Positions 12,037 through 56,300 of a DNA stretch of 64,000 nt are shown here, piece by piece. The notes beneath the pieces are model-generated. The model saw only the letters and a list, made by a program, of their open reading frames with translations. It did no database searches and was not told where the DNA came from. Source of the stretch: Loxodes magnus (lineage: Eukaryota; Ciliophora; Karyorelictea; Loxodida; Loxodidae); assembly GCA_946699065.1 (NCBI GenBank), contig CAMPDV010000286.1, positions 124,001 to 188,000 of the forward strand. Reading direction: 5' to 3'. Made by a program: the position numbers and the translations under genes. Every line of letters begins with the position of its first letter. The first letter of the stretch is position 1.

Positions 12037-15000
12037 ATGTCAATCTCTTTAATTATCTTTTATTTCCTTATCTCTAGAATTTCAGCTTAATTTACATTTT
12101 TTGATATACTTGATCCAAATGTACCAACTTAAAGAGATACTAACTCAGTGCCTTCTAAAACTTTTTCTGAATATGGCTAAGATCCGTAGGGACTTCAATT
12201 TAGCGTTACAGCCTGGTTAAAATTTAGCTCCAGTAAACAAGTAAAGATTCATGGCATTTTCCTTTAATTTTATATTAATACTAATGCTTAGTATTTTGAA
12301 TTCGGTTTGACTTAAGATTAAACAAATTAGCAAACATCTTTCAAAATAATCTAAAGCATTACAATTTAAGATATAAAGTAATTAACCATCTCCTTTGTTA
12401 GTGATATCTGGGTATTTTTTGGATGTGCAATTAATTCTCAAGGAGATTTTATAGCTCTCGCAACTCATTAAAAGATAAATAACTAGTTTTAGACTCTATC
12501 AGAATCCTTTGGGTAACTATTGCTTTTTACTTCAAGTTTTTTAATAAATTAAGGAAGTATATTTTAATCTTGGAGTTTTACTGGGACTACTTATTCATTA
12601 AGATATTATAAGAATTAACTATTTGATATTAATGCCTTTAAATTAATTTTAGACTAGTCTGATTAGGGCTTTCTATAAGCAAGTTCTATTACTTGTAACT
12701 CCTAATGCTTCAAATGTTATGGAATTAATTCTAATAATTGCATCCAATGCTATTCCCCATTAGATTTATAGGCAGATACATGCATATGCAACTTAAAGTT
12801 ATCAGTAGAATAAGTATGTAATAGTACATGTCCTATAACATAATAAGACTAAGACAATAATAAATAATGCGAGTTTTGTAATAAAATCATTTTAAATTGT
12901 GAAGAGTGCAATTAACAAGGAACTATATGCTCTAAGTGTTAAAATCCTTGATTATTATAAAATAGTTAGTGTGTAGAGAAATGCATAAGCAAAACATATT
13001 TTTAAGATAGCTTAACTTGCTTAAAATGCGAATCTAGAATCTAGAATTGTGAAACGTGTGATATAACTGGAACTTTGTGTACAGAATGTTAATATCCATG
13101 ATTCTTATTCTAAAATTAATGCGTTTAAAGTTGCCCTAATGATAACTTTTATGTTGAGGATTCTATTTGTTTAAACTGTAATTCCTCAATAGAGAATTGT
13201 TAAAGATGCAATTTAAACGGATCATTGTGCTTACAATGCTGAGAATCTTTTATTTTATTCGAAAACTAGTGTATCTAGAACTGTCCGAACGAAACGTTTT
13301 TTATTGAAAATTCTACTTGCCTAAAATGCGAAAATAAAATAGAAAATTGCTAAGAATGCAATTCAAACGGAGATAATTGCACAAAATGTTTGAAACCTTG
13401 GCTTTTATTCGGCAATAAATGTGTTCAAAATTGTCCAAGTAATCTTTATTATGAAGAGGGTTAAAGTTGCTAACTATGTAATTAGAGTATAAATAATTGT
13501 GAAATGTGCAATATAAACGGCACTGAGTGTCTTAAATGTTAGGACCCTTATGTTTTGTTTGATAATATGTGCATTGAAAGTTGTCCTAATCAAACATACT
13601 ATATTCAGAACTCCATTTGTCAAAAGTGTTCATAAATGATCGAAAACTGTAAATTCTGCGATATTGAAAGAAGAACATGTTTAGAGTGCTACGATCCTTA
13701 TTTTCTTTTTCAAGAAACTTCTTGTGTTAGCAAATGCTAATAAAACTAGATAAATATCAATAAAACTTGTTAGTCTTGCGAAATAATTCCTCACTGCTAG
13801 TTTTGTTCATGAAATCTTTCATAGTCGATAGAATGCTTTTAATGCTTTCCAAATTTTACATTATCAAATAATGAATGCATTGAGAAAAATTTAGAGAACA
13901 TTTAAAAGCCTAATAAGAATGAAAATCTTACTGACTCCGAAAAAATATTTGCAGAATTAACAGCAAACTTTGCAAAGTATAGCTAACTCACAGCATTTGC
14001 GTCAGAAAATATATTAATTGCAATTACTTTAGAGCAATCTAATTTTTTCTAAGCTTTTTGGTGCGTAGCTTTCATAACTCAAATGATTATGCTTAATGCA
14101 TATATAAATGTCCCTCGTCCAGAAAATTTAAATAACTATTACTTTCAAAATCTCAACTTGAAAATACCCTTTGGACTAAATACAAATTTTTTGGATATTA
14201 AATGAACAAGCTTACCAGTAGAAAATCAGATCTGAAGAAAACTTTAATATGAAAGTTTCGCTTTCATAGCCAATGTATTGAATACTTTTATCATGCTTAC
14301 TTTCTCCATTTTCTTGAAAATTTTATTCTAATTACTAAGTTCCTGCTTCAAAAACGTTACCGTTTTTAATAAGCTTCATAATGCATATCACTATGATACT
14401 GTAATAAATTTCTACTTTGGATAGAGCATTTGCTTGAGTTTCGCTATTTTTATTCAGATTTATTATTTAGACTTCAGCTCTATATATGAAACTTTAAATA
14501 TAATGCTCTCCTTCGCTTTTATGGTAATTCATCATACAGATCATTTAAATTATAGTTATAATTGCTATTTTTAGAGGAGTTTATACATTTTACAAACTGT
14601 AAAAGTCAGAGTAAAATCAAGCAAAGAACACTGAAAGAATATCTAGTATAAGCAAAAAATATAGCATCTTCTTCCAAGATTTTTAGCCAAATAAAATAGC
14701 TATTTATTATATTCTTTTCTTAGTAAGACGTTTCATCTTAGCATGTTTCCTCATAGTTTTATTCGAATATCCTGAGGCACAAATAGCTATTATAAATTCA
14801 CTATGCGTTCTCTAGATTTTGTTTCTTCTTTTTTACAAACCTTATTAAAACCCTAAGAGGAACTATTTCGAGTGCGTAGTGGAAGTGTATCTAATAATAT
14901 TATACATGACTAACTTCTATTTCATATAATTAGAAAATAATAGAAGATTAGAATAAGTCTGGGATGATAAAGCAGTCTGATTTGGATAGTTTGTTATGTA

Positions 15001-25834: not shown

Positions 25835-27389
25835 TCAAGTTTATTTTTGGCTAGTATGCTAGGATTTATGACTTCTTGACTTTTTATTCTTGATCTGTCT
25901 TTTGTGATGTTTATGCACTTTTTATTCTTCTATATTTTCGTGAATCTAATAAATTATATCAGAATCTTCTCGTTGACTTTATATAACTGTTGTGTTATGC
26001 ATGTTCACTTTTTGTTTCGAGTCATCTTAGTTGATTAAATCTTGCTGTTGTAACTACTCATTCTTCTATTGCTACTACATTTTCTCTTATCTCCCTTTTT
26101 TCCAAGATTTATAAAAATCTATAAAAGAAAATATAAGTGATATTACTAAAGCTATTAATGTGAAAAGACAACATGTTATTGTGGTCACTACTCCTAATGT
26201 TTATGCATCTGTATTTCAATCTTAAGTATAAGTGCTATGACTATTAGCTTCGAAATAGAAGTTAAAGAAATAAATAAAAATGAGTACCATTTCTCCACTT
26301 ATCTCAACAGCATACTACAAAATATTTTTAAAAGGTTTGAAATAAACTATATAAAAGAACCAAACTAAACAATGAATAAGGTATAATATGATTTAAGCTA
26401 CTTATATCTCTACTAATATAATAGCTGCAAAAGAAACAAAAAGTCTCCTTACTAGAAAGAAAGTTTAGTAAAGTGTTTGCATCTTGTTATCCTATTTCTT
26501 TTAGTCAAAGTAAACTATATACTTTTCTTTAATCTATGCTATTTATTTCTCTGTCTTCTCCTCTTTAGTTTCCTAAAATTTATTTTTTAAACTGTAATAT
26601 TTATTAAGGACTTGAAAGCTATGAAAAATGCATGCTATTTAAATAACCTAAATATAAAAACTTACTAGTACTAGGATAGCAAGGAAGGAGTTTAAGCCAG
26701 AATAAAAATCAGAAACAGTAAAGTGATAAAGTTGTAACATAACAGCATTATTAATCTGAAGAGCCTTAATACTATAAATCACTGAGACGTAGTTTCTGTT
26801 CGTAAATTTAGTTCTTATTTTCTCTATTTTAGTCTTACAACACTTGAGTCCAATAATCTTGAGTAGTAAGTCAATAAAAAGTAAAATGAATAGCAGGAAA
26901 AGAGCTTCAAATAAATTGGATAATAGAGTGTAGCTTTAGTAATTAAGTTAAACATAAATTTATTTATCTATTTTCAATTAGTTGGAATTTAGATTTAAAC
27001 CAATAAAATTATTATTACTTAGTCCATTTTATTTCTATTTATTGTCAAAGCTAGTATAATAGTAAGCGTTAAGAACTTCAGGTCGTTATACATCAACATA
27101 TACGCTCATAAGAATGAGTTGAGTTATAAAAATAGCTTATAAAAATTTAGGAGTACTTGCTGAATACTTAGAGTTACTAAAAAGGCTAGTTAAAAAAGAA
27201 CTTAAACTTACTAAAGCACTAGTGTAAACAAGAGCAGTAGATATATCAGAAGAATTTTGTATAAAATCTTTTTCTGAGTTTGAAATTTAGAAGTCATCAA
27301 GACTCTTTTTTATATCCTTAAATTAATCTTATTTCTATTCCTCTTCTTAATTTTAAGGGTCAGTATTATTTTCAATCTTTTCAGGTTTC
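24621..27389. repeat. Near-identical block, C unit (pairs with 36125-38893)
   Basis: About 2.77 kb covering spacer and the C-terminal third of copy C is repeated at offset +11504. I could spot only a few substitutions (for example near 26320 and near 26866). Sequence on both sides is still homologous but clearly more diverged, with indels. This pattern fits a recent gene-conversion tract better than a whole-unit duplication. Confidence 0.8.
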
Positions 27390-29404
27390 TAATAGCTCTC
27401 TAAATTTTTCTCAATGCATTCATTATTTGATAATGTAAAATTTATATAGCACGAAGAACATTCTATCGACTATGAAAGATTTCATGAACAAAACTAGCAG
27501 TGAGGAATTATTTCGCAAGATTAACAAGTTTTATTGATATTTATCTAGTCTTATTAGCATTTTTTAACACAAAAAGTTTCTTGAAAAAGAAAATAGGGAT
27601 CGTAGCACTCTAAACATGCTCCTCTTTCGACATCGCAAAATTTACAGTTTTCGATTTTTTGTGAACACTTTTGACAAATGGAGTTCTGAATATAATAAGT
27701 TTGATTAGGACAACTCTCAATGCACATATTATCAAACAAAACATAAGGGTCCTAGCATTTAAGACACTCGGTACCGTTTATATTGCACATTTCACAATTA
27801 CTTATACTCTAATTACATAGTTAGCAACTTTAACTCTCTTCATAATAAAGATTGCTTGGACAATTTTAAACACACTTATTGCCGAATAGAAGCCAAGGTT
27901 CCAAGCATTTTGTGCAGATATCTCCATTTGAGTTACATTCTTAGCAATTTTCTAACTTATTTTCGCATTTTTGGCAAGTAGAATTTTCAATAAAAAACGT
28001 TTCGTTCGGACAAATTTGAACGCATTAATTTTAGAATAAGATTCATGGATATTAACACTTTGTACACAAAATCCCAGTTATATCACACGTTTCACAATTC
28101 TAGATTCTAGATTCGCATTTGAAGCAAGTTTAGTTACTTTAAAAAAATGTTTCGTTAGGGCATTTCTAGATACACTAGTTTTCGAATAAGATAAAAGGTT
28201 CTTAGCATTTAAAGCACAATGATCCATTTAAATTGCATCTTTAACAGTTCTCTATTGAGGAATTACAGTTTATGCAAATAAAATCCTCAACATAAAAGCT
28301 ATCGTTAGGGCAACTTTAAACGCATTAATTCTAGAATAAGAATCATGGATATTAACATTTTGTACACAAAGTCCCAGTTATATCACACGTTTCACAATTC
28401 TAGATTCTAGATTCACATTTGAAGCAAACTTAGTTACTTTAAAAAAATGTTTCGTTTGGGCATTTCTCTACACACTAACTATTGTATAATAATCAAGGAT
28501 TTTAACACTTAGAGCATACAGTTCCTTGCTAATTACACTCTTCACAATTTAAAATGGTTTTATTACAAAACTCGCATTTTTTATCATTTTTATTGTCTTA
28601 TTATGTTATAGGACATGTACTATTGCATATTTATTCTACTGATAACTTTAAATTGCATATGCATGAATCCGCTGAAAAATCTCATGAGGAGTAGCATTGG
28701 ATGCAATTATTAGAATTAGATCCATAACATTTGAAACATTAAGAATTACAAGTAATAGAATTTGCGGATAGAAAACCCGAGTCAGACTAATCTAAAATTA
28801 ATTTAAAGGCATTAATATCAAATAGTTAATTCTTATAATATCTTAATGAATAAGTAGTCCCAGTAAAACTCCAAGTCTTAATATAACTTCCTTAATTTAT
28901 TATAGTGCTTGAATTAAAAGGCAATAGTTATCCTAAAGATTATGATAGAGTCTAAAACTAGTTATTTATCTTTGAATGAGTAGCAGTAGCTAAAAAATCT
29001 CCTTGAGAATTAATTGCACATCCAAAAAATACTCAAATATCACTAACAAACATCATATCCAATTAGAAAGAAGTAATTCCTCCGATATTTTGATTTATTC
29101 TGAAAGCAGTTTGCTAATTTGTTTAGTTTTACATCAAAGCTAATTCTAGAAAATTCGAAACACCATCATAAAATTGAATGAAATTACCATGAATCTATAC
29201 TTGTTTACTGGAGCTAAATTTTAACCAGGCTGATACGCTAAATTAAAGTCCTTGGGGATCTTAGCCATATTCAGCAAAAGTTTTAGATGGCAATGAGTTA
29301 GTATCTCTTTAAGTTGGAACATTTGGATCAAGTATATCAAAAAATGTTAACTAAGGTGAAACTTAAGAGATAAGGAAATAAAAGATAATTAAAGAGATTG
29401 ACAT
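25835..29404 (-). CDS. Copy C: LamG-like / Cys-rich repeat / multi-pass membrane protein, complete
   Basis: One uninterrupted frame of 1189 codons runs from the ATG (29404-29402) to a TGA at 25837-25835, with TAA/TAG as Gln and rarer internal TGA as Trp (for example 26218-26216 in QDWNTDA). Order: signal peptide; LamG-like region with SDIWVFFGCA (Trp by TGA); Cys-rich array with one 300-nt internal duplication; Ser/Gln linker; at least six hydrophobic segments, including FITQLILMSAY, LLFTLLFIDLLLK, FLAILVLVSFYIQV, YQTFFLVRRLFVSFAAIIL and CCLFTLIALVISLIFSF. After FLVRR comes YFKPFKNILQYAVEISGE, a layout seen in many ciliate furin-repeat membrane proteins (from memory). The tail is Gln/Lys/His-rich. 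This is the best complete member and a model for the others. Function unknown; surface protein likely. Confidence 0.8.
28021..28450 (-). repeat. 300-nt internal duplication in the Cys-rich array of copy C
   Basis: The segment starting at 28021 recurs at 28321 almost unchanged, a period of exactly 300 nt or two 50-residue modules. The frame is kept. D lacks the extra unit, which largely explains why D is 52 residues shorter. Confidence 0.8.
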
Positions 29405-32400
29405 TTTATTTATAAATAATTACGCTTATATCAATAATAAACATAGATGTAAGCTATTTAATAAATTTAACTAACTTAAATTTACATCATCAATTTATCA
29501 AATATGGGTAGAAAATAAATCTCAAATGACTTTAATTTTAACTTTAATCTACAATAGCAAGCTTTCTCAAGATATTATAACAACTCTTAATATGAAAAAT
29601 AACACTTGAAGTAATCAAGATAATTGGATAAAAGTATAGTGCTGCATATAAGCAGTTCTTAAATTTATTTGTTATACTTTGAATTTAACTATATATATCC
29701 TTTTATTTCTGTTTTAAAGTGATTTAGAAGTTTAATACTTCCAAATATTTTAAAATAAAAAAATAGGGATGATGTGTTTGTAATTACATTTTGTGTAGAT
29801 AAATTTTAAATTAATGATAACTCAGAAAAATAAGTTTAAGTTATGCTTATTAATGAGAAAAGAAATCACTTATAAAATTTGTTGAAGGCAAGATCTTGTA
29901 ATAATAGAGTATTTACTTTATCAACTTTAATTTTTTTTAATATAAATTGTCTTCATTGAGATTTCCTATATGCACATAATTTAATTTTAGAACTTCTCAA
30001 ACTTTCTTTCTAAATATAGATGATTACATACTACAAAAATTCTAAATCTTTTTTTCTCTTTTTAATTATGCTGTTATTAGTTATAAATAGCTGCTTTTGA
30101 TATTATTTTGTCTTGAAGTTAAAGTATAATAATTATTAATCTTAAAGATTTATTTTAAGAATTATATATTCAACACTTGTATATGCATAATAACTTTTTT
30201 ACTCTTTTGATTGTAGAGATTTATAAGTATCTTAGTAAGCTAAAATAGAGAATAATAACTTTTTAGCATTAATTATTTTTTAATATTTTATAGCTTTTTG
30301 TTGTCATTTACTTTGCTATGTTTAGAATTAAATTAATTCTGCTTTGCGAAGATTAATTTTTATCCTTATTGCTAACAGTAAACATCTAATTTATCTCTTA
30401 AATCAATAAGGTTTATTTAGAAAATGCATAATCATTTGTGGACTTTAATTTGATGCTTCGTAAAATTTATTAAAGAATGATATAAACTAAACATTTGTAT
30501 AGCTAATTTATTTTTTAAAGGTTGCTTTAAGAATTATCTTAAGAGATAGATAATTATTTGAAGGTAATTTACTAAGAACAAATTTCAAATAAGATAGTAA
30601 TAAGAAAACTTTGAAATGCTTTCATCATTTAATTAGCCAAAAACTTTCTTTCAACTTACTCTTTATATCTTTATCCTTTTTTATTTAATTTAAACTGGTA
30701 TTGAGAAAGCCTGTAGTTGATATTTGAAAAAATAAAACCATGATAAATAAAATGATTAAGATACTTTGAATGACTTAGTGGATTATAAGCTTTGTGATAA
30801 AAATTATTAGATAACAAATACTTTTATTTCTAATTCTTCTAGTTAAAGTATAATTCTCTTAATACAAAATAAAGTTAGAAAATAAAAATTCTAAACAAAA
30901 TATTCACAAGTCTATAAATGTTAGCAATCAAGTAATTATTTAGCAAAAGGTATGATTTGCAACACTTGTTATAATAAAGCTATAATCTTATTTTCTGGCT
31001 GAGATTTAGTTAATTAAGAGGAAAGAAAATTGAAAATATTTATAAAGTTATAATTATTTTTAAATAGATAATGAATTTATACCTTACAAGTATTATATTA
31101 TAATTTAAGCTTATTACAACTATAAAGATAGATATACTTATATTTTTAAAGGAATAATGAAATCATACCTTACAAGTATTATATTATAATTTAAGTTTAT
31201 TACACCTATAAAGATAGATATACTTATAATTATTAAAATTATAAATGTAAGTCATATAGTACTTTATTTTTATATTTAGTATATAGTTAAATTTTAAAGA
31301 TTCTGTATTTTAAATTTAAAACTAACTATCTGTCTCTTTAGATTAATAAAATTGTAAGCTAAAAGGTAAAATATCTTAAATAATAAAGATATAATAATAA
31401 TCTATTTTCAATTAAATCTAATGGATTAAGCTATTTTTCTAAAATATATTCTTAATTATTATTTTATTTTATTGGTCTAGAAATATAATCTTACTCGTAG
31501 ATCTCTTAGAGAATACTGCTGTGGAGTTTTAATAATTTATATAGATCGAATCTTAAATTTCTATCAGTCTCGAAAATAAAATTCCATATATAAGATAACA
31601 AACTCTATGAATCTCATAAATCCTATAAAATAAAAATAACTAACCATTTTAGAAAAAAGATAAAAAAAGTATAAAATGCTTTAACTTTTCTTTTCTAAGA
31701 ATTTTATAAAAAAATATTTATTCATAGTATTAATCTAATCAGCTGTATATAAAGTTTATAATTATAGAATAAATCTATACTTGTTAAAGGTTTTTATGGA
31801 GATAGATATAAAAATCTATTATTTTTATATAGTTATTTATTTAAATTTAAAGATGCCTGATTGTTTGAAATTTCTTTTAAAATATCTTTAATTTCTTAAA
31901 TAGTAAAAAGATTAAATCTGTATAATTGAAGGAGCGATTATAATTTATCTATTTGTAATAAATTTCGTTATATGCTACCAATGTAGGTTAAATAATTAAA
32001 GTCTAATAAACTTATAACTAATATATCTCATAATTAGAATTAAAGCATAAAGTTAAAAATGTATAATAGATAAAGCTAAAGGTTATATTTACTATTTAGA
32101 GCTATTAAATAAATTAAAATGGCTTAAGAGAAATCTTTTATTTACTTTTTAACTAAAATCTATTTATAATTATAAAGGTAAATATACCATTGTTAAATTT
32201 TAAGATAGATGTTCTTATAAAACAAAAATAAGGTATGTAGATTAAAATAACTAAAGCCTTTTATCATGCTTTATTTTTACTTATTTAGAGATATCTTAAT
32301 ATAAAATTTAGTTTGAACTATCTGAAGCTTAATAGAAAAAAGTATAAATGCAATTGAAAATGATTAATACTAAAAATAAATAGAACTAATGCATAAGGAA

Positions 32401-37338: not shown

Positions 37339-38893
37339 TCAAGTTTATTTTTGGCTAGTATGCTAGGATTTATGACTTCTTGACTTTTTATTCTTGATCT
37401 GTCTTTTGTGATGTTTATGCACTTTTTATTCTTCTATATTTTCGTGAATCTAATAAATTATATCAGAATCTTCTCGTTGACTTTATATAACTGTTGTGTT
37501 ATGCATGTTCACTTTTTGTTTCGAGTCATCTTAGTTGATTAAATCTTGCTGTTGTAACTACTCATTCTTCTATTGCTACTACATTTTCTCTTATCTCCCT
37601 TTTTTCCAAGATTTATAAAAATCTATAAAAGAAAATATAAGTGATATTACTAAAGCTATTAATGTGAAAAGACAACATGTTATTGTGGTCACTACTCCTA
37701 ATGTTTATGCATCTGTATTTCAATCTTAAGTATAAGTGCTATGACTATTAGCTTCGAAATAGAAGTTAAAGAAATAAATAAAAATGAGTACCATTTCTCC
37801 ACTTATCTCAACAGCATACTACGAAATATTTTTAAAAGGTTTGAAATAAACTATATAAAAGAACCAAACTAAACAATGAATAAGGTATAATATGATTTAA
37901 GCTACTTATATCTCTACTAATATAATAGCTGCAAAAGAAACAAAAAGTCTCCTTACTAGAAAGAAAGTTTAGTAAAGTGTTTGCATCTTGTTATCCTATT
38001 TCTTTTAGTCAAAGTAAACTATATACTTTTCTTTAATCTATGCTATTTATTTCTCTGTCTTCTCCTCTTTAGTTTCCTAAAATTTATTTTTTAAACTGTA
38101 ATATTTATTAAGGACTTGAAAGCTATGAAAAATGCATGCTATTTAAATAACCTAAATATAAAAACTTACTAGTACTAGGATAGCAAGGAAGGAGTTTAAG
38201 CCAGAATAAAAATCAGAAACAGTAAAGTGATAAAGTTGTAACATAACAGCATTATTAATCTGAAGAGCCTTAATACTATAAATCACTGAGACGTAGTTTC
38301 TGTTCGTAAATTTAGTTCTTATTTTCTCTATTTTAGTCTTACAACACTTGAGTCCAATAATCTTGAGTAATAAATCAATAAAAAGTAAAATGAATAGCAG
38401 GAAAAGAGCTTCAAATAAATTGGATAATAGAGTGTAGCTTTAGTAATTAAGTTAAACATAAATTTATTTATCTATTTTCAATTAGTTGGAATTTAGATTT
38501 AAACCAATAAAATTATTATTACTTAGTCCATTTTATTTCTATTTATTGTCAAAGCTAGTATAATAGTAAGCGTTAAGAACTTCAGGTCGTTATACATCAA
38601 CATATACGCTCATAAGAATGAGTTGAGTTATAAAAATAGCTTATAAAAATTTAGGAGTACTTGCTGAATACTTAGAGTTACTAAAAAGGCTAGTTAAAAA
38701 AGAACTTAAACTTACTAAAGCACTAGTGTAAACAAGAGCAGTAGATATATCAGAAGAATTTTGTATAAAATCTTTTTCTGAGTTTGAAATTTAGAAGTCA
38801 TCAAGACTCTTTTTTATATCCTTAAATTAATCTTATTTCTATTCCTCTTCTTAATTTTAAGGGTCAGTATTATTTTCAATCTTTTCAGGTTTC
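36125..38893. repeat. Near-identical block, D unit (pairs with 24621-27389)
   Basis: Partner of the block at 24621-27389 at constant offset 11504. The right boundary lies in the linker of the gene: after TTTCAGGTTTC the D copy departs, while C still agrees with A. Confidence 0.8.
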
Positions 38894-40752
38894 GAATTAT
38901 TCTCTTATTTTTTCTCAATGCATTCATTATTTGATAATGTAAAATTTATCTAGCACTAAGAACATTCTATCGACTATGAAAGATTTCATGAACAAAACTA
39001 GCAGTGAGGAATTATTTCGCAAGATTAACAAGTTTTATTGATATTTATCTAGTCTTACTAGCATTTTTTAACACAAAAAATTTCTTGAAAAAGAAAATAG
39101 GGATCGTAGCACTCTAAACATGCTCCTCTTTCGACATCGCAAAATTTACAGTTTTCGATTTTTTGTGAACACTTTTGACAAATGGAGTTTTGAATATAGT
39201 AAGTTTGATTAGGACAACTTTCAATGCACATATTATCAAACAAAACATAAGGGTCCTAACATTTAAGACATTCAGTACCATTTATATTGCACATTTCACA
39301 ATTACTTATACTCTAATTACATAGTTAGCAACTTTAACTCTCTTCATAATAAAGATTGCTTGAACAATTCTAAACACATTTATTGTCAAATAGAAGCCAA
39401 GGTTCCAAGCATTTTGTGCAATTATCTCCGTTTGAATTGCATTCTGAGCAATTTTCTAACTTATTTTCGCATTTTAGGCAAGTAGAATTTTCAATAAAAA
39501 ACGTTTCGTTAGGACAGTTACACTAGTTTTTGAATAAGATAAAAGATTCTTTGCATTGAAAACACTATGATCCATTTAAATTGCATCTTAAGCAATTCTC
39601 TATTGAGAAATTACAGTTTAAGCAAATAAAATTATTAACATAAAAGTTATCGTTAGGGCAACTTTAAACGCATTAATTCTAGAATAAGAATCATGGATAT
39701 TAACACTTTTTACACAAAATCCCAGTTATATCACACGTTTCACAATTCTAGATTCTAGATTCGCATTTAAAGCAAGTTTAGTTATCTTAAAAATATGTTG
39801 CGTTTGTGCATTTCTCTACACACTAACTATTGTATAATAATCAAGGATTTTAACACTTAGAGCATATAGTTCCTTGCTAATTACACTCTTCGCAATTTAA
39901 AATGGTTTTATTACAAAACTCGCATTATTTATTATTGTCTTAGTCTTATTATGTTATAGGACATGTACTATTACATACTTATTCTACTGATAACTTTAAA
40001 TTGCATATGCATGAATCTGCTGAAAAATCTCCTGATGAATAGCATTAGATACAATTATTAGAATTAGGTCCAAAGCATTTGGAGCATTAAGAGTTACAAG
40101 TAATAGAACTTGATTATAGAAAGCCCTAATCAAACTACTCTAAAATATACTGAAAGTCGATAATACGTAAATATTAATTCTTATAATATCTTAATGAATA
40201 AGTAGTCCCAGTAAAACTCCAAGATCAAACATTGCTTCCTTAATTTATTATAGTACTTGAAGTAAAAGGCAATAGTTACCCAAAGAGATCTGATAGAGTC
40301 TAAAACTAGTTATTTATCTTTGAATGAGTTGCAACAGCAAAAAAGCTTCCTTGAGTATTAATTGCGAATCCAAAGATTACTCAAATATCACTAACAATGG
40401 AGATGGTTAATTATTTTACAGTTCAAATTTAAATGTTTTAAATTATTTAGAAAGTAGTTTGCTAATTTGTTTAGTCTTATATCAAACCGAGTTCTAGATA
40501 ATTATAACTACCATCATGAAATTGAAGGAAAATACCATAATTCATTACTTGTTTACTGGAGTTAAATTTTAACCAGGCTGTAACGCTAAATTAAAGTCCC
40601 TGCGGATTTTAGCCATATTAAGAAAAAGTTTTAGAAGGCAATGAGTTAGTATCTCTTCAAGTTGGGACATTTGGATTAATAATATCAAAAAATGCTAGCT
40701 AAGGCGAAACTTAAGAGATAAGGAAATAAAAGATAATTAAAGAGATTGACAT
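37339..40752 (-). CDS. Copy D: LamG-like / Cys-rich repeat / multi-pass membrane protein, complete
   Basis: ATG at 40752-40750 and TGA at 37341-37339 are in phase, giving 1137 codons. The C-terminal third is almost the same as copy C. The LamG-like region resembles A and B more in places, and the Cys-rich array is shorter than in C because one module is missing near 39520. The internal fragment reading MFDNMCIESCPNQTYYIQNS is shared with C and E. Head-to-tail arrangement with C (period about 11.4 kb) shows a tandem duplication of the whole unit. Role as for copy C. Confidence 0.78.
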
Positions 40753-42230
40753 TTTATTTATAAATAGTTATGGTTATATCAATAATAAACATAGATGTAA
40801 GCTATTTAATAAATTAAACTAACTTAAATTTACATAATCAATTTATCAAATATGGGCAGATAATAAATCTCAAATGACTTTAATTTTAGCTCTAATCTAA
40901 AATAGCAATTTTTCTCAAGATACTACAACAACTCTTAATATGAAAAATAATACTTGAAGTAACCAAGATAATTGGATAGAAGTATAGGGCTGTATTTAAT
41001 CAGTTCTTTAATTTATTTGTTATACTTTAAATTTAACTATTTATATCCTTTTATTTCAAATTTAAAGTGAGTTAGAAGTTTAATACTTTGAAAGCTTTTA
41101 AAAAATAAAATAGGGATGATGTGTTTACAATTCATTAAGTTTAGATAAATTTTAAATTAATGATAATTCAGAGAAATAAGTTTAAGTTATGTTAAATAAT
41201 GAGAAAAGAAGCCACTTATAAAATTTGTTGTAGGCAAGATCTTTTAATAATAATTTGTTTGTTTTATCAACTTTAATTATTAAAAAGGTTTCTATAATTG
41301 TTTCATTTAACTTTTATATTTTAGTAATGACTGATTATTTATATTTATTTCCCTTCTATTAGTTTATCTTTTATTAAATTGAAATTAAATAAAAGTTAAA
41401 TTAAATTAAAGTAGCTTTAAATAAGTATTATAGCTCTTCCTATAATATTCTTTTATAATAATGTAGAGATAAACATTAAATAGATGTATTTTTAAAGGTT
41501 TATGAGATTTTAGTAATTTAGTACAATTTTTAAAAAGACAGTTGAATAAAAAAATAATATAGGTATAACCAAAAATTTCTAATTATTATTAAGTATATTT
41601 AGATTATTCTTTTAATTTAGATAAATAAATAGCTACTTTTATTAATGTAGAGAAAATGTTTTATTCCATAGAAATAAGATTATTATAACAATAACTTAAA
41701 AGAAATGGGATCATAATTGCATTCGAATCATTTTACTAAAATTTAGATTTATCATTTCTTATATGGAAACATATTAAAAAGCTTTAATATAACGATTGAG
41801 TTTCACAGAAAGTTCACATGGATCAGTATTAGATCTATTGTATTACGATATTGTAATTCATTATTTAGAAAATAAAATGGTTAGATAGGATTTAAATGTT
41901 TGAATTTAGATAAAAACTTCGCTTGCATAATATGAGATGGAAATTTAATTTTAATATCAAAATAAAGAAAAAATACACAATAATTATAAATAAAACTAAA
42001 CAAATTTTCGACAAACAAAATATATTTCTATGTTTGAAGCTAATTAATTTTTAAAGAAATATAAAAATAACGAGCTATAACTTAATTTTAAGATTGGAAC
42101 TTCACCACTATATAAAAATAATAAGTCACGTATTTATGAGTACTTTTGCATTAAAAAAGGAAAACTAAATTTCTTTTAAACAGATGACCTAAAAATATCT
42201 AGTGGCAAAGAAAAAAAAATTGTATTATCT
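40753..42230. other. AT-rich spacer between copy D and the LINE
   Basis: Bases 40753-41280 are the conserved upstream flank of the gene family. Bases 41285-42225 are an inverted paralogue of 9560-10480. Sequence homology ends where the LINE begins, near TATTATCT at 42224-42231. In the 9.5-kb region the SINE begins at the same paralogous position. Confidence 0.6.
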
Positions 42231-42468
42231 GAAATATTAAAAAATGGTTAGCTTCAAGAAGGGTTTTTATACCACCTCCTCAGAGTAGGAGAGAAAACCT
42301 GAAGCACTTTCATTTACCACGTCTTAGCTTCAATTATTCCAACCTTCTTTATTATGCATGGAAATCAGACTAATAATGCAAGACCTCAGACTACGCAGGA
42401 CCAAACTAACTGACCGAACGAACACGAAATAATAGAACGAATAATAGAAAAAAAATAGCAATATATCC

Positions 42469-43347
42469 ATGATTGGTCGGACTTTACTAAAAGGAGGAGC
42501 ACAAAATAAGAAAGGAATGTGGCAAAAAAAGAAAACAACCTAAGTAATAATTTAACAAAATAATGAACAACTCATTTCAGCCAACGTCCCTGAAGAGTAA
42601 ATGTAAAGGGTCTACTAAAATGCCTATGATGATTTATCAGAAATGGTGGCCGCAATTTACTTTAACCATTACTTGGAAAACACTGATTTAGTAGAGAAAA
42701 AGGCCAAAGACTAAGAAGTTATACAAGTGTTTAGAAATCAAATATGGAAGGATTACGGACAAGCAGTGGCGAAGTTCATAGTGAAATAAAACGGAATTGT
42801 ATACGTGGTATTTAACAATGAAGAAAGATACTAACATTTCACTTAATTCAGGGAATGAACGTTCAAAGGAGTTAGAATTCCTATCTAAGCTAGAAACTAA
42901 TTGGAATATTTTGACATTCATAACTACCAAATTTACTTCACAATCAACGAATACTCAAATATGAAGGAAGTAATGGAAATAACAAGATAATATGGAAAAT
43001 CAAGAGGAGAGATATAGCATACATATCCAAACACAACAATGCTAACAGGGAGCAATGTAGTCTACCTAGATTTAAAGGATGTAGACGAAGCAAAGAGGAT
43101 ACCAGAAGTAATAGATTTGAATGAAAAAAAAATGAGAAAATAACACCCAGTAAATTTTATCTGCTGCCTATGTAAAGTGAAAGGGCACACAGACCAGCAA
43201 TGCAAAATGATAGAAGTAGCAAAAAGGAAAAAGTTACATACAAGAGAATTAGAGATGCTTGAAGGAGAAGTTATTTTAACAATAAACAAACCAGATTTTG
43301 AAGCAAATCAAGCAATAAGAGGATAATTGGAGAAGAAGAATAAATGA
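42469..43347 (+). CDS. LINE ORF1 protein (CCHC zinc knuckle)
   Basis: The frame is open from an ATG at 42469 (alternative ATG at 42517, MWQKKKTT...). It encodes about 292 residues with one internal Trp by TGA at 42856 (FREWTFKG). The centre (EMVAAIYFNHYLEN; KFIVKQNGIVYVVFN) looks like a folded RNA-binding region, and a perfect C-x2-C-x4-H-x4-C knuckle lies at 43162-43203. A Lys-rich stretch follows. The last codon before ORF2 is TGA at 43345-43347, overlapping the ORF2 ATG by three bases (ATGA). Such gag-like ORF1 proteins bind the element RNA as a particle. The stop assignment is inferred, because TGA can also be Trp. Confidence 0.7.
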
Positions 43348-46300
43348 TTATAGAGGAATCAAGGGAAGAAGAGAAGGAAATAAAATGAGGAGAATAGAAA
43401 AATAATTAAAACAACTAAACAATTAAATAATAAAAAGTTTTTTATGCTTAAAGAATAAATAAAAATTATTTTTCATCAAAATGGAATTGGACATATGTAA
43501 GACAGAGGGATAGAGAAATGTTAAAATAATTAAATAAAATAGAAAACAATCAACTAAATAATAAGATATACCATAAAGCAAATTAGAGAAAAGGATAGGA
43601 TAGGTGATGGTAAAAACGCTAAACCCTAACAAAAGAAATAGGAAATAAACAAAATAGTATAATGGAGTATGTCAGGAAAAACGTAAATAAAGGATAAAAG
43701 CAAAAAGAAATTGAACAAACTCAAGAAGAAAAAGAATAAGATGCAAGATAAAAGTGAGAAGAAAGAAGTAAATTGAAGCAAACTTCAATGAGAATGTACT
43801 ATGCTAAGAAACCGAAAAACAAAAATGAATAATTATCCGACTTCAACTAATAGGAAAAGGAAAAAGAAGAAGATTAGAATAGATAAGAAGAAGGAAAAGG
43901 TAGATAATAAGATGAAAAAGATAAAAGAGGGAAAAGAACTAATAAAGAAAATAATATGGAAGCATAGAATGATAGATAAGAAGAAGAAAAGGTGGAGAAG
44001 GAAGATGAATAAAAAGAAGAATAAGGTGAAGAGGAAGTAGAGGGAATGAGTGTAAAAAAAGATTAAGAATAAGTCATAAAAATAGGGACAGCAAATGTTA
44101 GGGGAGTAAGAAGAGCAAAAGAGGTACTAGCCAAATTCATGGCTCAAAAAAGTATCCACATAATGGCAATATAAGAAATTTAGATTGAAGACTAAAAAGA
44201 TATGTGTAAAATAGCAGGATATAAAAACTTAATAAATGTGGGATCAAAAAAAGGAAAAGGAGTAGCATTCTATATTAGAAACGACATATGTAAGGAGATC
44301 AGAGAGATATAGAATGAAGTAAACCAAATGACGCTCTTTGGAGGAGCGAGAGTAATGGCAATAGAAATAATGAAATAATTAGCAGTAATAAATGTCTACG
44401 CTCCTGTTGCAAATAACAACGAACAGTATGAGCCTTTCTATAATTTAGTGAATGAATTTAAACTATAAGCAATAGAAAAAGGACTTAATATAATGATAAT
44501 AGGAGACTGAAATGCGCACATAGAAAAATGACTGCCAAAGAAAACAAACTCAGCAGGAAAGAGAATGACACAGTTTATGGAACAGAATAATTTAATATGC
44601 CTAGACCCAACTGAAATAGGTACCTTTATTCACTAAAACAATGAGTATAAAATAGATTACTTTTTAATCGAAGAGAGTATGAGAGAAAAGGTGTTAAAGA
44701 GTGATTTTTATTACTCATACGTAATAGGTGACCATAGGCCTGATATTATATAGGTAAAGATGGGTAAAGAAGTAAGAAAGCCATAAAAGATAGCAAAAAT
44801 AAACTACCTACTATTAAAGAAAAAAGAGATATAAGAAAAATTTGAAAGATTTATACAAGAAAATCTCTAAGAAGAAGAAATTGATAACCTAAACGGCACA
44901 TAGACTTATAAATAATGAAAGAAAAAGATATAAGAAAGAGTTTAAATAGTATGTGGAAAATTTAAAACATAAAACTCTAAGATATATAAATATTCAGAAA
45001 CAACAAAATAGTGTAATAAAATCTTTAGAAAATGCAGCAAACAATTAAAATAAAGGGTAAAGAACAGAGAACAAATAAATGAAAATCAATAAATTGAGAA
45101 TCAAAGAGAATACCAAAGAGTAAGATAAGAATACATTTAATCAAGTAAAAAAGATAAAAGAAACTAACTAAACCTATTTATGGACAATGTAAATAAAAGA
45201 AGTTTAACAGATGTGTGGAAGAAACTAAAAAACTTACTTAATAGAAAAAATAATTAATGAGTACCCTTATTAAAAGAAGATGTTAATACTTTCAGGGATG
45301 AATGATAGAAACTGTATGAAGATGGCGATAATACGTTACCAACTAAATTCTTAAACAAGAGATAAATAGTGGTAAACGAATATGAAATTTGAGAAATCAT
45401 CAACTAATTGGCGAAATGAAAAGCAGCAGGACCTGATGAAATACAAGTAGGTACAATATTAGCAGGCGGGAAAAAACTAACAGAAGTAACATGTAAAATG
45501 ATAGTTAAGATGATTTAAGAGGGAGTAATACCTTAAGAGATGAAATAATAATACACAATATTAATATACAGAAAAGGAGGACAGATGAACCCAATGAATT
45601 ATAGACCAATCTCTTTACTGAATCATGCTTTAAAAATAGTAGATGCATGAATTTTCTAGCAACTATAAGGATATCTGCATAATGATGAAAGCGAATATTA
45701 ATATGGCTTTAAAAAAGGAAAATCATGCTCACTATAAATTTTCAACCTAAGAACAATATAGGAATGATCAATACGGAACAAAAAAGATGTTTTCGTAATA
45801 TTTGTTGATATTAAGAAAGCGTACGACTCGGTGCAAAGAAAAGATATATCATAAATCCTAAACGATCCAAAAGTACCGGAATAGATAATTAAACTCCTAG
45901 CAAACTTCTACTGTGAAGAAGAAATTAAACTTAAAATCAATGAATAAATAGCAAAATCATTCGCGACAAATAAAGGACTAAAACAGGGAAGCATAACGTT
46001 GCCAAGACTATTTAACTTAATAATAGCAAGACTTCTCCATAGCTTGGAAGATTAAAAGCTAGGAATTACGATAGACTTTAAAAACTAAGAGGGATGAACA
46101 CAAGAAATATATGCAGGATGTTTTGCATATGCAGATGACCTAGCCTTAATAAGTGAATGAGAATAATTAGAGGAAGTAATCAAAAATTTAACCTCATGGG
46201 CAGAAAAATACAAACTGGAAATTGCAGATAAAACAAAATGAATGATATGAAAAGCAGCAGAAAATAGAAACTGAGAAAATATAGGCAATACTATTGAGGT

Positions 46301-47676
46301 GGGAAATTTAAGAATCGAAAGAGTAACGTTCTTTTAGTACCTAGAGCATATAATAGAAGAGACCATCAGCTTTGAAAAGCACATGGAGAACAGACTAGAA
46401 GCAGCATAAAAGATGTAAACATGAATACTGGGTAAAATAACAATGAATAAGGGATTAACACCATATAATGCAGGAAAAATGATAAAAACGTTCGTAAGCT
46501 CAGTATTCAGCTATGGGACAGAAGTTATCCCATATTGTCAATAATTTGTAGTTAAATAAGTGATGGAACAATTAGAAATAATATAGAGAAGATCTTTACG
46601 AGCAATCATAGATGCCCCTTTCTAAGTGTAAAATGAGATGCTAGAATACGAGTTACAGTTTATGAAATTTAAACATTACCTATGGCAGAAAACGCTGAGA
46701 TTAAGAGGCAGACTAATAGGTAACTAAGGAAAAACAGTAGATGGATTAATGTTCGACCTAAGTAAAGAAGAGAACTTTATTTTTGAACAATACTGCACGA
46801 CAATAAAATTAGAATTAAAAATTGAAGACAAAAATATATTTATAGATGATGGTAATAATAATCAAAAAGGGAAGAAAAACATTAATCGTGCAATTTGAGA
46901 ACATAGAGTATACATAGAAGATAGAGAAAGAATGGAGTAAATGATAACAACTCTACAGTATAGAAAAACATGATTTGATGAATATGTAGTAGGACCACCC
47001 AACTACCTGAGATACAATAAAAATAGAAAAGAAGAAATATGCTACATATTTAGAATAAGAACGAGATGTAATGGGAGCCAGGATTGTTTAAAAGAAAGAC
47101 ACCTAGTTGCGACAAGCAAATGCCCTTTCTGTAATGATGCAAGAGAAAACGAAAGGCATATCATAGAAAAATGCTCAGAATACAAAGAAAGCAGATAAAT
47201 ATGTATTAGAAAGTTAAGAACAATAGGAGTAGAAAGACAAGGAATGGAACTATTTGATATAATATGAGGTACGGCAAAATTTGAAAAATTCATTAGAACC
47301 TAAGAAGAGTAAAAAAGAGCTAAAACTGACTTGATAATAAAAGATTATATCAAAAACATATTAGAAAAAAGAAAAAAAGGTTACTTAGAAAAGAAAATTG
47401 AATGAAAAAAAGAAATAGGAAAATATTATAGAGCAGGAAAAGGATAATTTTATGAGTTTATAAAAGCTTGATTAAGAAGAAAATAATTAGAAACGAAAAT
47501 TAGCAAAGTATGTAAAAAAAATAATGGAAACTTGTAACAAAGAATCAATAAAAGGAAGATAGATAGAAGACAGAAGAACAAGAGATATTGAAGAAGAAAA
47601 TGATGAAGATATGGAACTAATAAGAGAAGAATTTTTATTACCTGAAGGCTTACTCGGAGAAATAGACATGTATTGA
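43344..47676 (+). CDS. LINE ORF2 protein: endonuclease, reverse transcriptase, C-terminal Cys/His motif
   Basis: Starts at ATG 43344 inside ATGA. The first 230 residues are acidic and coiled-coil-like (Glu/Lys/Gln). An APE-type endonuclease begins near 44085 (IGTANVRG; AIQEIQIED; GDWNAH with Trp by TGA at 44508). The reverse transcriptase carries MNYRPISLL near 45594, VDIKKAYDSV near 45800, GLKQGSI near 45975 and the catalytic YADD at 46128-46139. KTKWMIWK has TGA at 46239 and 46248. Further on is C-x2-C-x8-H-x4-C from 47121. The last part (RDIEEENDEDMELIREEF... to TGA at 47674-47676) lies in the +1 frame after AAAAAAAA near 47512. Either one A was gained or the ribosome slips. Roughly 1440 residues, normal for the class. 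No RNase H domain was seen. Confidence 0.82.
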
Positions 47677-47689
47677 AACATTTATTAAA

Positions 47690-47745
47690 GAGCTGCGCAC
47701 CAACGAGGTGCTACGCGCTCTATAATCAAATTTATTTATTTATAT
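47690..47745 (+). other. LINE 3' stem-loop and TTTA-repeat tail
   Basis: GAGC-T-GCG-CACC pairs with GGTG-CTA-CGC-GCTC around AACGA (47690-47720). TATAATC and then ATTTATTTATTTAT follow. The same structure ends both SINE-like elements, so it is the presumed template site for target-primed reverse transcription. Confidence 0.8.
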
Positions 47746-53324: not shown

Positions 53325-56300
53325 ATGTCAATCTCTTTAATTATTTTTTATTTCCTTATCTCTTAAGTTTCATCTTATTTTACATTTTTTGATATACTTG
53401 ATTCAAATGTTCCAACTTAAAGAGATACTAACTCATTGCCTTCTAAAACTTTTTCTTAATATGGCTAAGATCCGCAGGGACTTTAATTTAGCGTATCAGC
53501 CTGGTTAAAATTTAACTCCAGTAAACAAGTAATGAATTATGGTTATTTCCTTTAATTTTATGATGATATTTAGAATTATCTAGAATTCGGTTTGTTATAA
53601 AACTAAACAAATTAGCAAACTGCTTTCAAAATAAATCAAAATATCGGAGGAATTACTTCTTTCTAATTGGATATGATGTTTGTTAGTGATATCTGAGTAT
53701 TTTTTGGATGTGCAATTAATTCTCAAGGAGATTTTTTAGCTGCTGCAACTCATTCAAAGATAAATAACTAGTTTTAGACTCTATCAGAATCCTTAGGATA
53801 ACTATTGCCTTTTATTTCAAATACTATAATAAATTAAGGAAGTTTTATTTATGTTTGCAGTTTTACTGGGACTATTTATTCATTAAGATATTATAAGAAT
53901 TAATATTTACGTATTATCGACTTTCAGTACATTTTAGACTAGTCTGATTAGGGCTTTCTATAATCAAGTTCTATTACTTGTAATTCCTAATGCTTCAAAT
54001 GTTATGGAATTAATTCTAATAATTGTATCCAATGCTATTCCACAGGAGATTTTTCAGCAGATTCATGTATATGCAATTTAAAGTTATCAGTAGAATAAGA
54101 ATGCAATAGTACATGTCCTATAACATAATAAGACTAAGACAATAATAAATAATGCGAGTTTTGTAACAAAACCATTTTAAATTGCAAAGAGTGTAATCAG
54201 GAAGGAACTATATGCTCTAAGTGTTAAAATCCTTGATTATTATACAATAGTTAGTGTGTAGAGAAATGCCCTAACGAAACATTTTTTTAAAGTAACTAAG
54301 TTTGCTTCAAATGTGAATCTAGAATCTAGAAATGTGGAGCGTGCGATATAACTGGAACTTTGTGTACAAAGTGTTAAAATCCTTTTCTTTTATTCGAAAA
54401 CTAGTGTATCTAAAACTGTCCTAACGAAACGTTTTTTATTGAAAATTCTACTTGCCAAAAATGCGAAAATAAGTTAGAAAATTGCTCAGAATGCAATTCA
54501 AACGGAGATAATTGCACAAAATGCTTGGAACCTTGGCTTCTATTTGACAATAAATGTGCTTAGAATTGTCCAAGCAATCTTTATTATGAAAAGAGTTAAA
54601 GTTGCTAACTATGTAATTAGAGTATAAGTAATTGTGAAATGTGCAATATAAACGGTACTGAGTGTCTTAAATGTTAGGACCCTTATGTTTTGTTTGATAA
54701 TATGTGCATTGAAAGTTGTCCTAATCAAACTTACTATGTTCAGAACTCCATTTGTCAAAAGTGTTCACAAAAGATCGAAAACTGCAAATTGTGCGATATC
54801 GAAAGAGGAGCATGTTTAGAGTGCTACGATCCTTATTTTCTTTTTCAAGAAAATTCTTGTGTTAGTAAATGCTAATATGACTAGATAAATATCAATAAAA
54901 CTTGTTAATCTTGCGAAATAATTCCTCACTGCTAGTTTTGTTCATGAAATATTTCATAGTCGATAGAATGCTCTTAGTGCTTTCCAAATTTTACATTATC
55001 AAATAATGAATGCATTCTGAAAAATTTGAAACCTAATAAAAATGAAAATCTTACTGACTCTGAAAAAAAATTTGCTGAATTAACAGCAAACTTTGTAAAG
55101 TATAGCTAATTAACAGTATTTGTGTCAGAAAATGTAGTAATTATAAGTACTCTAGAACATCCTAATTACTTTTAATCTTTTTGGTGTGTAGCTTTCATAA
55201 CTCAAATGATTATGCTTAATGCATATATAAATGTCCCTCGTCCAGAAAATTTGAGTAATTATTACTTTCAAAATTTCAACTTGAAAATACCCTTTGGACT
55301 AAATACAAATTTCTTAGACATTAAATGAACAGGTTTACCAGTAGAAAATCAGATCTGAAGAAAACTTTAATATGAAAGTTTCGCTTTCATAGCCAATGCT
55401 TTGAATGCTTCTATTGTCCTTATTTTCTCCATCTTTTTGAATATTGTATTCTGAGTGTTAAAATCCTGCTTTAAGAACATAGCCATCTTTAATAAACTTT
55501 ACAATTCATTTCACTATGAAACTGTAATAAACTTCTACTTTGGATAGAGTATATGTTTGAGTTTCGCTATTTTTATACAAGTTTATTATTTAGATTTCAG
55601 TTCAATATATGGAACGCTAAATTTACTTTTGGCCTTCATTTTTATGGTAATTTATCATATAGATAATTTAAATACTAATTATAGTTTTAAGCTTTAAAGG
55701 AGTTTATACATTTTACAAACTGTAAAAGTCAGAGTAAAATCAAGCAAAGAACACTGAAAGAATATCTAGTATAACCAAAAAATATAGCATCTTCTTCCAA
55801 GATTTTTAGGCAAATAAAATAGCTATTTATTATATTCTTTTCTTAGTAAGACGTTTCATCTTAGCAAGCTTCCTCATAGTTTTATTCGAATATCCTGAGG
55901 CACAAATAGCTATTATAAATTTACTATGCGTTCTCTAGATTTTGTTTCTACTTTTTTTCAAACCTTATTAAAACCCTAAGAGGAACTATTTCGAGTGCGT
56001 AGTGGAAGTGTATCTAATAATATTATACATGACTAACTGCTATTTCATATAATTAGAAAATAATAGAAGATTAGAATAAGTCTGGGATGATAAAGCAGTC
56101 TGATTTGGATAGTTTGTCATGTACTTCTCTAGTAGCTTCATTTTCGCTCTTACGCTGTGTCTGCTTATTGTTAATATATGAAATTTCCTCTAGAGGAATA
56201 AAAATAAAATATAAGACACAAAACATTTAAATCCATTAGGATTAATGATGAGTTAACCTTAGCAGTAGCCTAACAAACAGAATATTTCATAAATTTTTGA

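Follow-up and report, generated by a model that had tools for sequence, protein, structure and literature searches.

The window analysed here is a 64,000-nucleotide stretch of the genome of the karyorelict ciliate Loxodes magnus (C286:124001-188000; contig CAMPDV010000286.1), which carries one copy of a long interspersed nuclear element (LINE) on its forward strand. Comparison with related copies pointed to a family that probably encodes one polyprotein of about 1,811 residues (probability roughly 0.7), in which a Gag-like part with a zinc knuckle, a linker, an AP endonuclease (EN), a reverse transcriptase (RT) and a C-terminal zinc motif would follow one another in a single frame. The initial annotation had described two open reading frames (ORFs), the first ending at a TGA at 43345; the break between them proved to be a base loss near 43313 that is private to the window copy. 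The LINE is a young APE-type non-LTR (lacking long terminal repeats) retrotransposon family, native to the ciliate and using the ambiguous code of its host. The presence of LINEs in L. magnus was already known, and the new point is the apparent joining of Gag and EN-RT where the host has no position-free stop. All readings of the LINE were drawn from sequence.

Genetic code of the host

In L. magnus, NCBI code 27 is used, in which all three standard stop codons are sense codons and UGA is also the sole stop (PMC11441545). The rule published for this species is that UGA stops translation only close to the mRNA 3' end, with reassigned codons depleted just upstream; the published 3' untranslated regions have a mean length of 53 nt and a median of 41 nt. 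Poly(A)-binding protein has been modelled in the choice of UGA as a stop in Condylostoma (PMC4967479). Reading the LINE with all stops reassigned is thus a reading in the host's own published code and not surprising, although the element had been presented as one that adopted such a code.

No codon is an unconditional stop under code 27; therefore, a gene cannot be claimed from an open frame, and open frames were rejected as evidence. In code-27 genomes, ORF borders need to be drawn from selection and from the comparison of copies. With translation table 11, no ORF of at least 100 amino acids could be found across the whole 64-kb window.

Copies of the LINE and frameshifts private to the window copy

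The genome searched for copies comprised 705,730,643 bases in 7,843 contigs. The LINE was recovered from 31 contigs, at no fewer than 34 places, and most copies were 97–98% identical. A total of 45 loci were fetched (numbered with L; contigs are numbered with C), and 23 entered the alignment of family A, to which the window copy belongs. Those left out were copies taken as duplicates from their identical flanks (L005, L006, L008, L016, L017 and L024), copies that were split or incomplete, some nearly full length (L019, L026, L027, L028 and L030–L034, with L028 lacking the first 42 nt only) and members of other families (L036–L038 and L042–L045). Within family A, L039 and L041 were more distant, at 88.4% and 87.6% identity to the window copy. 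In family C, the identity of L036 to the window LINE was 69.8% in EN-RT and 64.4% in a part of ORF1, and in family B, L037 was 65% identical in RT.

The alignment revealed two sites, 43313..43314 and 47447..47448, at which the window copy is one base shorter than the others. Both bases were present in 22/22 other aligned copies. Among the 38 fetched family copies, duplicates included, the base at 47447 was found in all 36 readable others (one copy did not reach the site), and the base at 43313 in 36 of 37 others, the last having a larger deletion beside the site. The window copy is accordingly judged dead from its two frameshifts.

At family length, the frame runs from an ATG at 42244 to a TGA at 47674, with the Gag-like domain, linker, EN and RT in one frame of about 1,811 codons, and the frame across the Gag/EN junction is shared in the family alignment. 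In L022, a single frame of 1,811 codons could be read from the ATG to the terminal TGA; with CADD as its RT motif, L022 is not put forward as an active element. The ATG at 42244..42246, the first one and about 10 nt into the element, is the probable start of the frame, as suggested by frame-specific constraint over 42244-42600; L007, L008 and L010 have ATA in place of this start codon. The TGA at 43345..43347 overlaps the ATG-A of a Met codon of the family frame at 43344 and is itself out of that frame, and the ORF1 that seemed to end there was rejected as a frameshift artefact. A layout of separate ORF1 and ORF2, as in L1, does not appear to apply to this family, with room for doubt left by the contrary phase and dN/dS counts given below.

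Domain architecture

The Gag-like (ORF1-type) domain spans 42244..43313, read with TGA as tryptophan (Trp) and TAA/TAG as glutamine (Gln). In comparisons with L039 and L041, its ratio of non-synonymous to synonymous substitution (dN/dS) was 0.18–0.50 in the core and 0.35–0.40 in the 5' part, and the domain was 51% identical to that of family C and 33% to that of family B. The zinc knuckle, C-X2-C-X4-H-X4-C, lies at 43162..43203 in the translation and gave a weak match to zf-CCHC_3 of Pfam (E 0.035) in one of three family members. No Pfam match of the Gag-like domain was above threshold: Translin (E 0.0081) fell under its cut-off, and RBD_ZCCHC3_2nd reached a best E of 0.054 in two of three family members. 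A PDB profile search with the same domain returned four chains of a Tra2-type splicing factor, presumably RNA recognition motif domains, at E 0.07–0.22, which is not significant.

The linker at 43314..44084 is rich in K, E and Q and, as its protein match to L036 indicates, lies in the same frame as EN-RT, with in-frame TGA codons at 43386, 43605 and 43755. It is followed by the APE-type endonuclease at 44085..44741 (Exo_endo_phos, PF03372, E 5e-7; Exo_endo_phos_2, PF14529, E 6.7e-12), in which the motif GDWNAH has TGA as Trp at 44508. The RT at 45591..46247, with YADD at 46128-46139, matched RVT_1 (PF00078) at E 1.6e-29. The PDB matches included R2, and the best matches of EN-RT were L1 ORF2p chains (best E 7.9e-22). 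These Pfam and L1 ORF2p matches, obtained with TAA/TAG as Gln and TGA as Trp, confirmed a LINE in which all three stops are sense codons, and the translation likewise agreed with the earlier placing of TGA within GDWNAH and KTKWMIWK. A C-terminal motif, C-X2-C-X8-H-X4-C, could be read at 47121..47174.

Selection on the joined frame and the linker

In the comparisons of L002 with L039 and L041, one and the same codon position varied most in the ORF1 windows and in almost every EN-RT window; across the linker and at the 3' end it wavered. In the joined frame, dN/dS between the 19 near copies and L039/L041 was 0.18/0.25 in ORF1, 0.19/0.31 in EN and 0.15/0.25 in RT, compared with 0.65–1.88 for the other two frames of these regions. 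Among the near copies alone, which are 2–3% apart, codon phase was not visible.

Of the protein matches between the linkers of family A and L036, that in the joined frame was clearly the strongest (score 291, z 16.7, equalled by 0/200 shuffles); the other two matched frames, which share the same underlying DNA similarity, scored 166 (z 5.4) and 134 (z 6.2). L036 itself shifts frame inside the knuckle region and near the C-terminus.

The three linker TGAs bear on an improbable alternative, in which Gag and EN-RT would be two cistrons in the same frame, with one of these codons stopping some ribosomes and being read as Trp by others. The TGAs at 43605 and 43755 were kept in 23/23 copies and that at 43386 in 22/23, 43755 is TGA in L036 too, and the ORF1 and ORF2 of Paramecium Group 3 elements lie in one frame with read-through proposed. 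However, there are only three such codons, with conservation barely above that of the rest of the linker codons (0.986 vs 0.942); at their distance of about 4 kb from the 3' end the published rule gives Trp, and the match to L036 continues beyond 43755.

Phase between Gag and EN-RT among copies

In family B, for which the base-level comparison covered 5 copies (23 in family A), Gag and EN of L037 at first appeared to be in different frames; the extra base of L037 was absent from the four other copies. In L045, a single frame led through the Gag domain and on into EN, and other indels were seen in L042, L043 and L044. The spacing between Gag and EN was counted in 37 pairs of family B with a Gag match reaching the knuckle (that of C54 ends 13 residues short). 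With six rows on C473 and C2272 set aside as seeming segmental duplicates, 16/31 copies were in phase, 10 were off by -1 or +2 and 5 the other way. The chance of at least 16/31 in phase at one third is 0.027 if the copies are taken as independent, which is not fully true. The commonest spacing was 1212 (10/37 rows), a multiple of three. The several B copies on C473 and C2272 all showed one common Gag-EN spacing.

A number of observations weigh against one joined frame. Every frame is open under this code, so the open frame of about 1,811 codons proves nothing by itself. Frameshifting indels occurred within the junction in 14/23 aligned copies, and 14/23 lacked a base near 47513 without which the frame misses the terminal TGA. 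The Gag-EN spacing of family A was in phase in 9/24 and off by -1 or +2 in 11/24; the Gag-RT spacing was in phase in 15/43 and off by -1 or +2 in 20/43, and the Gag-RT length was in phase in 9/23 aligned copies. A control spacing within EN-RT was in phase in 7/14. In family B, all 37 rows taken together gave 16 in phase, 15 off by -1 or +2 and 6 the other way, and the second commonest spacing was 1211 (8 rows), not a multiple of three, followed by 1209 (6). Outside the B count stood 16 copies of lower identity or without the knuckle, of which 4 were in phase: 2 of the 7 lower-identity copies that reach the knuckle (the remaining phases had 1 and 4) and 2 of the 9 that do not. Between L039 and L041, the ORF1 windows peaked at another codon position, with dN/dS of 0.50 in the joined frame and 0.48 in another frame (RT 0.39), and among near copies alone the ORF1 value was 0.76 in the joined frame vs 0.39 and 0.56 in the others. 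Linker dN/dS within the family was 0.50–0.64 in the joined frame, not lower than in another frame (0.44–0.51), and the linker protein of family B matched neither that of A nor that of C.

The family A counts took in many but not all rows (24 for Gag-EN, 43 for Gag-RT), and one left-out pair, on C472, was out of phase. Five of the nine in-phase aligned copies had one common length, and four copies were one base shorter than that. This phase scatter, the weakest point of the proposed polyprotein, may represent the decay of copies that were originally in phase, to which run-length errors may have added. The A-run at 47505-47520 differs by one base among copies, with the longer form in 9/23, and either mutation or assembly error is possible there; the length of this run affects whether a copy has its terminal TGA in frame.

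The same counts can be turned into a further alternative, in which Gag and EN-RT would lie in different frames and be connected by programmed frameshifting or internal re-initiation, the off-by-one copies showing the real state. Copies off by -1 or +2 are indeed the largest class in family A and the second in B (10/31), and there is a precedent in Paramecium Groups 1-2. One-base losses recurred near 43438 (L023, L035 and L041, with two bases lost in L039) and near 44101 (L002 and L035), but these sites are single-base runs of 6 and 4, and the other losses of family A (43313, 43895) are at separate sites. L036 likewise has TGA where 43345 aligns, against which stands the overlap of the TGA at 43345 with a Met codon of the joined frame. 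Four copies (C826, C618, C245 and C1013), which form one lower-identity family with a split Gag match, had the second half of Gag, with the knuckle, out of phase with EN; the first half was in phase with EN by arithmetic on coordinates, as if one shift had been undone by another. With the commonest B spacing a multiple of three and the linkers of A and C matching best in the joined frame, separate frames are considered unlikely.

Codon use

TGA is clearly a sense codon inside the LINE. L022 has 26 internal TGA vs 8 TGG, together with 82 TAA, 23 TAG, 36 CAA and 10 CAG, and most TGA codons of the conserved EN-RT were kept in 21-23 of 23 copies. In the family alignment, deviations from TAA were chiefly to CAA (30/87) and deviations from CAA chiefly to TAA (21/42); from this mutual exchange, TAA and TAG are read as Gln. 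For TGA, deviations to TGG (4/21) were no commoner than those to CGA, TAA or TTA (5 each), and TGG changed to TGA in 5/14. The Pfam score of EN was 45.8 with TGA as W, 35.0 as C and 33.9 as R. Contrary to this, RVT_1 scored slightly higher with TGA as C (107.3) or R (106.7) than as W (103.5). Trp as the sense of TGA is therefore taken mainly from the published code.

The codon counts also bear on whether the LINE is a contaminant, or came recently by horizontal transfer from a host with the standard code and was forced into this reading; either is hardly credible, and nothing was found in its favour. The excess of internal TGA over TGG and of TAA/TAG (105) over CAA/CAG (46) in L022, the TAA-CAA exchange and the published best matches in Blepharisma (PMC11441545) all argue against it. 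The LINE occurs in so many places and contigs that the contamination named as a possible refutation by the initial annotation is therefore excluded. The long residence in such a host that had been supposed was supported by the same copy number and by two further families, about 70% and 65% identical to that of the window, which also have TGA, TAG and TAA inside RT (C105 and C321).

The terminal TGA and the 3' end

The terminal TGA of the family frame (47674..47676) was kept in 23/23 copies, about 67 nt before the 3' end of the element, and forms the in-frame end of L022. Its earlier designation as a terminator could thus be upheld for the family, but the EN-RT frame of the window copy does not lead to it. 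In L022, the nearest reassigned codons upstream of it were TAG at 38, TAA at 54 and TGA at 74 codons (hand count); in L039, a TAA is nearer. The four proposed terminators (43345, 47674, 25837 and 37341) are all TGA, the last two on the minus strand. The idea that context separates Trp from stop fits the terminal TGA, but it speaks against a stop at 43345, which lies 4.3 kb upstream.

A hairpin at 47689..47721 precedes a (TTTA)n-type tail of variable length at 47727..47745, as seen at the 3' ends of copies; the genomic 3' end of the LINE shows TTTA repeats rather than poly(A). The RNA fold of the hairpin gave z -4.2 in the window copy, equalled by 1/200 shuffles, and was weaker in L041 (z -1.5, 18/200). 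Its sequence was present in 20/20 3' ends inspected, with single changes in L004, L010 and L018, which makes it a candidate recognition signal for the RT.

Proposed expression of the LINE

One message is proposed, from which one polyprotein would be translated from the ATG at 42244. Its internal UGAs (26 in L022) would be read as Trp because they are far from the mRNA 3' end, and the last UGA would end translation by its nearness to the end of the RNA. With the frame joined, the message would require no internal stop. The 3' hairpin and the UUUA repeats would be the probable start of target-primed copying by the RT. A code that may be unable to stop in mid-message would fit the joining of the two usual LINE genes in one frame; the code as the cause of this joining is put forward as a hypothesis, and single-ORF elements exist elsewhere (R2).

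A bolder version appears to be a long shot. In it, UGA stopping only near poly(A) would allow only monocistronic LINEs in such hosts, and the linker UGAs would act as a switch, early polyadenylation in the AT-rich linker giving Gag alone and full RNA giving Gag-Pol.

If confirmed, position-dependent stops would constrain the layout of messages, and mobile elements that have two ORFs elsewhere would have to join them. Such a constraint can be checked by setting ciliates with a code of this kind (Loxodes, Parduczia, Condylostoma) beside relatives that have true stops (Blepharisma, Paramecium).

Extent of the element and related elements

The whole LINE copy spans 42234 to about 47745, as determined by blastn between copies and from the edge sequences of 20 copies, beyond which the flanks diverge; this replaces the earlier limits of 43344-47676. 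By inspection of the ends of 20 copies, there are no long terminal repeats, and the 5' and 3' ends are distinct. L019 and L026 are cut at the 5' end, matching only from 43161 and 43239 (blastn). TTA-rich sequence precedes many copies, including that in the window (42180-42234), and insertion may favour TTA/TTTA repeats.

LINE matches were evenly spaced by 2,532 bases on C5131 and C20 and by about 18.4 kb on C17, which suggests arrays holding LINE pieces, or assembly repeats. L038 (C910) is a very different EN-RT element (GDFNALIP, FADD) that had no blastn match to the window LINE, and an upstream Gag-like domain was not obvious in it by eye. In viral contigs, no DNA matched the patterns searched.

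Other features of the window

Gene-like repeated segments were seen at 345-2541 (-), 12300-13940 (+), 25835-29500 (-), 37339-40998 (-) and 53677-55020 (+), holding internal repeats of about 150 nt in both orientations. The segment 25835-29500 matched Furin-like_2 (E 2.4e-7), and those at 345-2541, 37339-40998 and 53677-55020 gave no Pfam match in the frame chosen. The genes designated C and D end in TGA on the minus strand, at 25835-25837 and 37339-37341. Rfam and tRNA scans of the 64-kb window gave no matches.

Comparison with known systems

Full-length LINEs carrying RVT_1 and Exo_endo_phos_2 have already been reported in L. magnus, with best matches in Blepharisma (PMC11441545). They are likewise 5-6 kb long, of low divergence, with about 3,000 copies per family, and use code 27; the window LINE is likened to them by description and not by consensus sequence. 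The available text of that paper does not describe the number of ORFs, a Gag-like domain, the frame or a terminal UGA, and the term 'open reading frame' has no occurrence in its main text. In Swart 2016 (PMC4967479), 'polycistronic', 'bicistronic' and 'transposon' have no occurrences. No description of the ORF layout of Loxodes LINEs was found in the literature searched, a single collection, which is not proof of absence.

The non-LTR retrotransposons of Paramecium (Groups 1-3; PMC5405496) are likewise ciliate LINEs of the APE-RT kind. Upstream they carry an ORF1 with a zinc finger at its end, and their 3' repeats are short and variable; in Group 3 both ORFs lie in one frame, as is probable for the family of the window LINE. 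To pass from ORF1 to ORF2, the Paramecium LINEs that have an ORF1 are proposed to use a +1 shift or re-initiation in Groups 1-2 and stop read-through in Group 3. The Paramecium ORFs are parted by a stop or a +1 shift, whereas the Loxodes LINE shows no parting stop and its linker reads on.

L1-type LINEs have the same EN and RT domains in the same order, as could be seen with the L1 ORF2p chains in the PDB. Their layout is one of two ORFs; the Loxodes LINE differs in having the Gag-like part and EN-RT in what is probably one frame, and in its 3' hairpin and TTTA repeats. R2-type elements have one ORF, as the Loxodes LINE probably has, and their RT similarity was evident in the PDB matches. R2 carries a restriction-like endonuclease, and the Loxodes LINE differs from such elements in its Gag-like domain and in the APE endonuclease that precedes the RT.

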